Shown: positions 43,835 through 47,701 of the stretch, one piece after another
Layout: each line of letters opens with the position of its first letter
How positions within the stretch are numbered: the first letter of the stretch is position 1
Source: a virus
Length of the DNA: 64,000 bases
IMG/VR virus record: IMGVR_UViG_3300025131_011243
Coordinates: 58,592-122,591 of that record
Direction: 5' to 3' (one strand)
The notes under the pieces: generated by a model
The model's input: the letters and a program-made list of their open reading frames with translations, nothing else
What the model was told of the DNA's origin: nothing
Databases searched by the model: none
Program-made: the position numbers and the translations under genes

Positions 43835-44482
43835 CTACTTGTAACTCCGAACCGCAAAGTCCTTTAGAGTTACGGACCAACTCTTCCAACGAGGGTTGTC
43901 CGAAAGAACGTAGTCCAAAACTTCCTCAGCCACAACCGTAACGACTAGCATTACGATATTTCGGGCCAAAGGATAGTCACAGACATCTCCATCTTCCGAA
44001 TTTGCCGGAACTTGGTAAACGCTGTCCCAAACGACTTCTCCATAGTCCTCGAACAAACCGGAATGCAAGCAATCGATCTTGTTCTTAGAACAATAGTCGT
44101 GGAGAACCTGCCGGGCCTCGCTGTTGTCGAACGCATCGATAACAAGCTTAGCACCCTTGAGTAACTTCTTGACGTTTTTTTCTTCAAGCTTCTTGTTTAC
44201 AACGTCGATTTCCACGCCAACATCCCTCCAGATACGATTTTGCAAAGCCGTAACCTTCAAAGCTCCAACGTCGTTGTCGCCATAGACTTGAGTGTTGACG
44301 TTATGTTCGTCAACTCGGTCCATGTCGATGACGCAGATATCGCTTACGCCCTGACGGATCAGGGTCTCTACCAAGTTGCTACCCAAAGCACCCGCACCGC
44401 AAACAACGATACGAACGCCCTTGAGACGATCAATCAGACCTTCTCCACGGTAGGCGATTTCATGTGTGAATTTCTTGGCCAT
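43835..44482 (-). CDS. E1/ThiF/MoeB-like adenylyltransferase
   Basis: A 215-aa E1-superfamily protein. The nucleotide loop is VVCGAGALGSNLVETLIRQGV (residues about 25-45), followed by VIDMDRVDEHNVNTQ and GDNDVGALKVTAL, then IDAFDNSEARQVL as the second core motif. CDYPLARN near residue 168 could hold a catalytic Cys. It is short and lacks zinc-binding CxxC pairs, as in many prokaryotic Ubl-linked E1s. It overlaps the JAB gene by 49 bp. It would activate the C-terminus of the ubiquitin-like protein at 47492-47701. Confidence 0.9.
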   Translation of the reverse strand: MAKKFTHEIAYRGEGLIDRLKGVRIVVCGAGALGSNLVETLIRQGVSDICVIDMDRVDEHNVNTQVYGDNDVGALKVTALQNRIWRDVGVEIDVVNKKLEEKNVKKLLKGAKLVIDAFDNSEARQVLHDYCSKNKIDCLHSGLFEDYGEVVWDSVYQVPANSEDGDVCDYPLARNIVMLVVTVVAEEVLDYVLSDNPRWKSWSVTLKDFAVRSYK

Positions 44483-44901
44483 TTTTTCGCTTTCTTCATA
44501 ATGGGTCTAACAACTGTCGGCATAACCCCCACAATTCTTTTCTTGATCATTCGAATATGTCCCTCAACGAAAGGTTGTTCGTCGTCAAAGAACCAGAAGC
44601 ATCTTAGCCCATCTGCTCCCTTAATGCAACATACAAACGGTCTTCCTTCGGCAACTATCCAAGCATTCATAGTTAAGATGTCGGTTGTGCTGGGACTTGC
44701 AATCATTGAAGGATGGGTATGAATCCAACCAATCACTCGATCAGGATCTCTCCTGACAAGTTCATGGTTGAATCCAACCCTAGCTGGGATGCCCAATTCA
44801 TAAGAGATAGCGCTCGTAACCCAAACGGGTCCGTACAGATCTCCTACCAAGATGTAGGACTCTTCGTCGCCAGTATTCATATTGAACATCAATCGCTCCA
44901 A
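44434..44901 (-). CDS. JAMM/JAB-domain metalloprotease
   Basis: A 155-aa protein with the JAMM motif IHTHPSMIASPSTTD (His-x-His ... Ser-x2-Asp; residues about 60-73). An upstream Glu in GDEESYILVGDLYG could complete the zinc site. JAB proteases remove or mature ubiquitin-like proteins. It lies between the 311-aa gene and E1, overlapping the latter by 49 bp. With the Ubl, E1 and TROVE genes it forms a conjugation or maturation cassette. Confidence 0.9.
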   Translation of the reverse strand: MERLMFNMNTGDEESYILVGDLYGPVWVTSAISYELGIPARVGFNHELVRRDPDRVIGWIHTHPSMIASPSTTDILTMNAWIVAEGRPFVCCIKGADGLRCFWFFDDEQPFVEGHIRMIKKRIVGVMPTVVRPIMKKAKKWPRNSHMKSPTVEKV

Positions 44902-45824
44902 TCTCCAGTGTAATCGTCGGTTCCTCTATCGTCTACGTCAAGATAGTTCCCGCCAACTCGGTAAATCTGGTTGCCCGTAATACCCTCTCGGATAACGCCA
45001 ACCAAACTCTGCAAGTCGAAGTTCCTATCTCCACCAGACAAACAGATGCCCGCCGATTGAACAGCAAGCGTTTTCTTATCAACAGTCGAACGATGAGTTT
45101 CACCATCGACAACATACTCGACAGTATACGACTCGCCTCGCTCAACGAAACTCCTGAATCCGCCACCAGCACGATTGATTGCCGACTTTACTCGACCTTC
45201 TGCCGTAAGAGCTTCCGCCTCGACAGCAAGCCTCTTGGCTTCCTTTTCGGCCTCAACAACATCGACCAAAGCAAGGTCGTAAGCACGTCTCTGTTCCTTT
45301 GACATACTTGAAAAATCAACGTCCTTCGGGGCAACGTTTTCTGACAAGGCATTTCTCAATACAGTTGCATGCTTGATGCTATGAGCGTCGTCGATCCTTT
45401 CGAACCAACAGTTGATGCCATCGAATCTAACACGCACTGCATCGAACAACTGCAATTCTTCCGGCAAAAGAATAGGAACAAATCCTTGAATCTTGAACCG
45501 GGAATCACCTTCGTTTGCAGGGATACCCCAGAAACGGTTGTCCTGTCGCCTGGTTGCGATCAACCTTAGAACAGGGAACAGGTTGAAGTACGTTCGCCTC
45601 TCGATCATCGTAGGCTCACGTACAAACTCTGCGAGCTTGTAGGAAGCGGGACGGAATACGCCCCAACCCTCAAAACCTCTCGGCTTTGAAACCCGCAATG
45701 ACATAACGATGTCAGCAATCTTAACCCTGATCGCCTTATTGCGCAGAACAGGGCTGAAGAATTCCGACTTGAGGAAAACATCTTCTTCCGCTGCCAACTT
45801 TTTCAAAAGCTCATTGACCTTCAT
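44889..45824 (-). CDS. Hypothetical protein in the Ubl/E1/JAB cassette
   Basis: A 311-aa protein. The N-terminal 120 residues look folded with many Phe/Arg (FFSPVLRNKAIRVKIADIVMSLRVSKPRGFEGWGVF). A charged helix follows (LALVDVVEAEKEAKRLAVEAEAL), then a beta-rich end (SYTVEYVVDGETHRSTVDKKTL; GICLSGGDRNFDLQSL). It overlaps JAB by 13 bp, so it belongs to the cassette. It sits where an E2-like protein occurs in related bacterial operons, and Cys in GICLSGG or INCWFER would be candidates, but I cannot see an E2 fold with confidence. Confidence 0.7.
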   Translation of the reverse strand: MKVNELLKKLAAEEDVFLKSEFFSPVLRNKAIRVKIADIVMSLRVSKPRGFEGWGVFRPASYKLAEFVREPTMIERRTYFNLFPVLRLIATRRQDNRFWGIPANEGDSRFKIQGFVPILLPEELQLFDAVRVRFDGINCWFERIDDAHSIKHATVLRNALSENVAPKDVDFSSMSKEQRRAYDLALVDVVEAEKEAKRLAVEAEALTAEGRVKSAINRAGGGFRSFVERGESYTVEYVVDGETHRSTVDKKTLAVQSAGICLSGGDRNFDLQSLVGVIREGITGNQIYRVGGNYLDVDDRGTDDYTGDWSD

Positions 45825-47441: not shown

Positions 47442-47491
47442 GGTCTTTCTCCTTAGAAAGAGTTTTACAAATTATCGATTCGGATTCGGAA

Positions 47492-47701
47492 TTAACCGAA
47501 TACAGCCTGCGGACGAAGAGTCATGTCACCGGTTTCTGCGTTGCGGTCAACAACGAAACCATTCATCTTGGTGAGAGGAGCACTGAAGTGATTAGCTACA
47601 GCCTGCTTGACGTCTTGGTCGGTAGAGAGATCGCCCACATCGATATCCTCGAAGAGAAGATCGAACGATTCTCCATTGTATCTGACGTGAAGTACTGACA
47701 T
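47492..47701 (-). CDS. Ubiquitin-like (beta-grasp) small protein
   Basis: A 69-aa protein: MSVLHVRYNGESFDLLFEDIDV (strand pair), DLSTDQDVKQAVANHF (helix), then MNGFVVDRNAETGDMTLRPQAVFG. Size, strand-helix-strand order and co-occurrence with E1 and JAB match the small Ubl proteins of bacterial and phage conjugation-like operons, such as PRTRC protein C. The C-terminus ends in a single Gly (VFG) rather than GG. A strong AAAGGAG site lies 7 nt before the start. The preceding transcript carries the tRNA array. Confidence 0.72.
   Translation of the reverse strand: MSVLHVRYNGESFDLLFEDIDVGDLSTDQDVKQAVANHFSAPLTKMNGFVVDRNAETGDMTLRPQAVFG

Follow-up and report, generated by a model that had tools for sequence, protein, structure and literature searches.

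A cassette of five consecutive genes, encoding a ubiquitin-like protein (Ubl), a Ro60-like TROVE-vWA protein, a 311 aa protein (p311), a JAMM/JAB metalloprotease and a minimal E1/ThiF-like adenylating enzyme, lies directly downstream of a group of Y-RNA-like elements on the minus strand of a 64,000 nt stretch of DNA (the window) taken from the 122,591 bp IMG/VR virus record IMGVR_UViG_3300025131_011243. Portal and terminase genes in the same window, together with the IMG/VR source, identify the DNA carrying the cassette as that of a phage. The 69 aa Ubl (47492..47701) is predicted to adopt a beta-grasp fold and ends in ...TLRPQAVFG; the 514 aa TROVE-vWA protein (45897..47441) has the MIDAS sequence DKSGSM; p311 (44889..45824) is an OB-fold protein; the JAMM protease (44434..44901) retains the full E...HxHP...S..D motif; and the E1 (43835..44482) is 215 aa long. 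As the p311/JAMM and JAMM/E1 open reading frames (ORFs) overlap, and the remaining intergenic gaps are 50-72 bp, the five genes look like a single operon. Pfam, NCBIfam and PADLOC assign no family to the Ubl, p311 or the TROVE protein taken singly. A first-pass annotation of this DNA had placed the same five ORFs consecutively on this strand and read them as a conjugation set linked to TROVE; its ORF positions, gene order and family assignments (E1 through ThiF, JAMM by motif, TROVE by profile and Ubl by fold prediction) stand, as do the terminal glycine of the Ubl and the link to TROVE; its proposal that p311 might be an E2 is not supported. It overlooked both the Y-RNA-like elements and the broad cellular distribution of the cassette. 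The RNA side is the main result, and because of its mimicry the system is much less ordinary than was first proposed.

Five Y-like elements lie between 48505 and 47749, adjacent to the Ubl gene and in the same orientation. In Y1 (48361..48505; folding z score -4.3), a Y stem surrounds a module that resembles a circularly permuted tRNA-Leu(UAA) and has its acceptor ends sealed, and Y2 (48042..48112; z = -4.2) is a minimal Y stem capped by a UUCG hairpin. The other three were identified by manual reading of the sequence and fold more weakly: Y3 (48127..48269; z = -2.9) is a tRNA-like gene whose D-loop region has a Y-stem hairpin inserted into it, Y4 (47882..48017; z = -1.8) is likewise tRNA-like and contains a Y-stem hairpin internally, and Y5 (47749..47876; z = -2.0), which adjoins the Ubl gene, has Y-like arms (an 8 bp closing stem, then a T-run) enclosing a tRNA-Leu(UAG) at 47777-47850. 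Further tRNA-Leu/Cys genes are found upstream of the module (48964..50875, minus strand). The minus-strand tRNA clusters of the window (40164-41268 and 47777-50875) are nearly all Ser/Leu, plus one Cys.

The cassette is found well beyond this phage. The 595 kb phage LR756511 harbours counterparts of all five genes in unchanged order, at 38-58% identity, and cyanobacterial plasmids of Kovacikia and Dolichospermum carry Ubl, TROVE, p311 and E1. Scanning cellular genomes with a p311 alignment recovered 174 relatives, mostly in Cyanobacteria and also in Planctomycetota, Acidobacteriota and Thiotrichaceae, of which 80 were retained; the conserved gene order is also present in at least nine viral contigs besides that of the window, and for viral contigs alignment queries were needed, as single-protein queries had given no matches. 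A tree of p311 places the protein of the window among phage sequences, beside those of Planctomycetota. Profile searches of 100 loci found the order Ubl-TROVE-p311-(JAMM)-E1 wherever all genes were within reach, with JAMM present in phage and Planctomycetota loci and missing from cyanobacterial and acidobacterial ones. As the order repeats in LR756511 and about 100 loci, the cassette is not a chance arrangement, and sequence comparison establishes Ubl, TROVE, p311 and E1, with or without JAMM, as a conserved module. Among 194 sampled cyanobacterial genomes, strong TROVE matches occur in 16, p311 in 15 and Ubl in 13, all within the same 16 genomes; p311 is hence present in 15 of the 16 TROVE genomes and Ubl is restricted to them (Fisher p values of 1e-15 to 1e-21, 16 vs 178 genomes). 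One genome (G183, locus L102) holds a decaying cassette, with stop codons in TROVE and p311 reduced to its C-terminal end.

Most of these loci also carry Y-RNA-like elements, 149 by motif, and shuffled loci contain none. The elements share a frame that opens with a covarying closing stem and CC[Y][R]AC, continues with AGCnUACAnAC, an insert and GCU, and ends with RACUU(G) and the returning stem; with its closed stem, bulge and ACUUG strand, this layout resembles the Ro60-binding stem of Y RNAs. They were chosen by motif alone, not by pairing, and the closing stem, tested at fixed spacing, pairs at 5.91 of 7 positions, compared with 4.73 when partners are swapped (z = 18). Single-sequence folds are sometimes weak (z scores of -0.9 to -1.3 for the elements of locus L042), and the structure of the elements therefore rests on covariation rather than on folding energy. 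The Rfam YrlA model matches two permuted-tRNA elements of locus L029, with E values of 8.6e-7 and 4.6e-5, both under the gathering score. A pattern describing the 5' arm of the RNA matches in 14 of the 194 cyanobacterial genomes, 13 of them cassette-positive and accounting for 42 of the 43 matches, and a reversed control pattern has 0 matches. At L042 (4420-4610), and likewise at other loci of Nostocales, the element that precedes the Ubl gene seemingly sits inside a second, outer tRNA-like fold, giving a tRNA within a Y stem within a tRNA.

The inserts held by this frame resemble RNAs of the translation machinery. The tRNA T-loop motif is present in 81 of 156 inserts and in 0 shuffles; ARAGORN reports 41 tRNAs and 15 circularly permuted tRNAs among these inserts, and tRNA-like genes next to the Ubl gene at most loci. 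Local alignment to 23S rRNA gives insert scores of up to 73, compared with 27 for the best shuffled control, which is exceeded by 39 inserts. Both the sarcin-ricin loop (SRL) and the L11-binding GTPase centre (E. coli 23S positions 2653-2666 and about 1037-1113) are found in 29 inserts, as a rule some 280 nt ahead of p311; H69-71 (23S positions 1917-1942) is present in at least nine. A further recurrent insert (GGTGCGTATCTGGAGGGATACGCTGCAAGCCTGA...GCAGGCA; L045 4134, L059 4372, L083 3620, L023 3563 and L065 6825) has no above-control match to tRNA or to E. coli rRNA; a huge-phage insert (L002 8702) containing GACGGTCATAAGGTAGCGAGTTTC resembles H69-71 and is a possible phage rRNA mimic; and one cassette-free genome (L109, 5673, minus strand) retains a single Y element with an SRL and GTPase-centre mimic. 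An L7/L12 paralog (PF00542, E = 3e-23) is frequent beside cyanobacterial cassettes, occurring at 15 loci. This, with the 29 elements combining SRL and GTPase-centre sequence, would suit a particle that takes over translation by mimicking the factor-binding centre (SRL, L11 region and L12) along with tRNAs, sequestering EF-Tu/EF-G or stringent factors for modification by the Ubl; such a role is improbable, given that the phage window has tRNA mimics only and that the L12 paralog is not universal.

On the protein side, the beta-grasp fold named in the first-pass annotation as decisive for the Ubl is indeed predicted (predicted local distance difference test, pLDDT, 90), the model having ubiquitin-like, PB1 and protein-G domains as neighbours at modest scores (best VIA Z score 6.1; Foldseek probability 0.95 for FAF1 UBL1). 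The C-terminus reads ...R-P-x-A-[VI]-[YF]-G in nearly all members and Gly69 is invariant in the 21 aligned; in the window it is ...RPQAVFG, with the one terminal glycine already noted. The JAMM protein matches Prok-JAB (E = 4e-5), and its motif residues E8, H56, H58, S66 and D69 (alignment numbering) are invariant among 13 relatives. A tail beyond the Ubl glycine is present at 0 of 30 JAMM-less loci and 5 of 13 JAMM loci (Fisher p = 0.0013, for related sequences that are not independent), four of the tails being short (K, KIET, KS and K) and the fifth a 63-residue extension. This fits a role for JAMM as maturation protease where a tail exists, and agrees with the earlier suggestion that trimming is dispensable where the Ubl already ends in glycine; as the window Ubl has no tail, the JAMM there is more likely a deconjugase. 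A search of 14 JAMM-less genomes turned up no close relative of JAMM outside the cassette locus. The longest extension follows ...RPKTPFG in virus Rctr197k (L005; 1191-3140, 6946-7344, 8031-8531 and 9995-10618), a divergent relative that has TROVE, JAMM, E1 and Ubl and is flanked by tRNA arrays. A phage-tail Ubl/JAB pair of the lambda-K/I type is not supported, as Ubl and JAMM are partnered by TROVE and RNA elements rather than by genes for tails, and the majority of loci are cellular; the JAMM protein has a weak match (E = 0.001) to phrog_5556, 'tail protein'.

The E1 is recognised by ThiF (E = 8e-31), and GxGAxG, K76, D119-N120 and C168 are invariant in 25 members, as is C138. ThiF/MoeB being its closest relatives, and the neighbouring genes being tRNAs and tRNA mimics, the E1 could instead make a C-terminal thiocarboxylate on the Ubl that donates sulfur to TROVE-held tRNAs, in the manner of Urm1 or TtuB, with no conjugation to protein. 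Urm1 and TtuB serve as both sulfur carriers and conjugated modifiers, which counts in favour of this alternative. Yet in all members the Ubl ends in a single glycine after [YF] rather than in GG, no sulfurtransferase or tRNA thiolase was recognised in the neighbours scanned, JAMM and the Ubl tails suit protease-controlled conjugation, and the rRNA mimics and L7/L12 would be left unexplained; sulfur transfer as the sole function is improbable.

A profile of 21 TROVE members remotely matches a solved TROVE protein (9l5y/9kop, E = 4.8e-5) and Rsr (2nvo, E = 0.054), and vWA matches are found in 17 of the 21. Two further vWA-like phage proteins, both phrog_7371, lie one on each side of the cassette region of the window (41361-42158 and 51081-52013, minus strand). 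The AlphaFold model of p311 is confident (pLDDT 89.5) and contains an OB fold at residues 83-148, similar to IF1, eIF5A, RsgA and RNase R (Z scores of about 6-7, for a common arrangement). The first-pass annotation was correct that no E2 is recognisable in the cassette. Its candidate for the role, p311, gains nothing from the comparisons made: none of the E2 families of Pfam matched among 42 members, hhalign gave a probability of 0.3% against an E2 profile made of three sequences, and E2 chains were absent from a VIA list that was filled by the OB domain and barely covered the C-terminal domain, which may still have such a fold. Cys261, within the C-terminal GICLSGxDRxFDLQSLVG, is invariant in 42 sequences, and by eye this motif resembles an E2 active-site turn, which keeps the E2 idea alive as a lead only.

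Other neighbours recur. Frequent at cyanobacterial loci are KptA/Tpt1 (PF01885, E = 5e-53), which occurs at 12 loci in all, and an unassigned 242 aa protein; the Kovacikia locus has a CCA-adding-type domain, and tRNA arrays adjoin the cassette in several cyanobacteria. In the window, an HD phosphohydrolase (42217-42747, minus strand; phrog_990, E = 5e-39) lies just downstream of the cassette, past a 260 aa orphan, and a phage NAD synthetase (phrog_36784) is encoded on the opposite strand (34773-36821). The KptA and CCA-adding-like genes are what would be expected of an RNA repair or maturation unit of the rsr-yrl-rtcBA type, in which Ubl and E1 merely regulate the particle, for instance by tagging TROVE or p311. 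The previously described rsr-yrlBA-rtcBA operon reacts to tRNAs that have been cut (PMC7790460), and the trn operon and rtcB of Anabaena are jointly repressed by TrcR (PMC10272220). Set against these are the lack of an RNA ligase among the neighbours scanned and the oddity of rRNA mimicry in a repair scaffold; repair as the principal function seems unlikely, if less so than sulfur transfer or take-over of translation.

The reading we favour, tentatively and at slightly under even confidence, is that the genes and RNAs of the locus form a ribonucleoprotein of the Ro60/Y-RNA type, equipped with Ubl-modification enzymes of its own and displaying mimics of translation RNAs as baits. The composition and conservation of the locus, the architecture of the RNAs and their mimicry are established at the level of sequence, and suggest an undescribed system guarding or controlling translation, in which the conjugation originally proposed is plausible. 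TROVE would bind the Y stem, and p311, through its OB fold, might bind either the mimic or the RNA particle as such. As a bait, the mimic could attract proteins acting on tRNAs or on the ribosomal factor-binding site, such as anticodon or rRNA nucleases, toxins and translation GTPases. The E1 would adenylate the C-terminal glycine of the Ubl, to be attached either to a protein caught by the bait or to a component of the particle, and JAMM would trim tailed Ubls and remove the tag. The specific version in which Y RNAs show tRNA or ribosomal mimics held by TROVE and p311, and the attacker or binder itself receives the Ubl mark, is on balance rather doubtful. In a phage, the likely purpose of such a particle would be to counter tRNA- or rRNA-cutting defences of the host, or to take control of translation; in cyanobacteria it may serve in translational stress or toxin defence. 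In jumbo phages, a TROVE protein and its tRNA-like partner have been suggested to act in RNA repair (PMC7824862). Translational stress has been suggested to induce cyanobacterial tRNA arrays and rtcB (PMC10272220), and a TROVE gene, not shown to be that of the cassette, is among the top induced genes, with RtcB, in a stressed cyanobacterial coculture (PMC11423583).

Several points weigh against the bait-displaying particle. No E2 was recognised beside the E1; Ubl adducts, their targets and RNA-protein binding are deduced rather than seen; the Ubl might carry sulfur; clear 23S mimics are confined to cyanobacterial loci, and the elements of the window, where no rRNA match was seen, are tRNA-like only. 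The tRNA-like domain of Salmonella YrlA is, moreover, not cut by the RecA-dependent anticodon nuclease, and such a domain has been proposed as a competitive inhibitor of an anticodon nuclease (PMC7790460); baiting may therefore work by competition rather than cleavage. Our search of the open-access literature yielded no Ubl associated with TROVE or with a Y RNA, and no Y RNAs copying the ribosomal GTPase centre and SRL. Should the particle exist as envisaged, it would link the tagging of proteins to the monitoring of the translation machinery, provide a testable role for bacterial Y RNAs and at least some phage tRNAs, and represent a module common to phages and filamentous cyanobacteria.

The closest known counterpart is bacterial Ro60 (Rsr) with its Y RNA/YrlA, which shares the TROVE-vWA protein, the Y-type stem and the tRNA-like upper module, Rfam YrlA matching some of the elements. 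The cassette differs from this and from rsr-yrlBA-rtcBA in having several RNAs per locus, inserts that are normal tRNAs or mimic 23S rRNA, and a dedicated Ubl-E1-p311(-JAMM) set; rtcBA was not recognised in the cassette neighbours examined. Bil (BilABCD) and type II CBASS likewise combine a Ubl or Ubl-like terminus, an E1 and a JAMM protease, but the cassette has no recognised E2, a single 215 aa adenylation domain as E1, a single-domain Ubl and a link to RNA. The Bil E1, with inactive and active adenylation domains and a Cys domain, and its two-domain Ubl (PMC11354881) are not matched by the 215 aa and 69 aa proteins of the window. PRTRC systems also place a small Ubl, ThiF and JAB on a mobile element, but the E1 scores 49 against a PRTRC_ThiF cut-off of 144.75, and none of the five genes was recognised as a PRTRC protein. 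The E1-like adenylation domain family is shared with ThiS/ThiF, MoaD/MoeB and TtuB/TtuC, from which the cassette is set apart by its lack of a GG end, of conserved Zn cysteine pairs and of a visible sulfur-transfer partner. The tRNA arrays adjoining some cyanobacterial cassettes recall the Anabaena trn (long tRNA) operon, for which PMC10272220 mentions neither Ubl nor TROVE. Each component family is known; the novelty is the coupling of Ubl activation to a Y-RNA particle.
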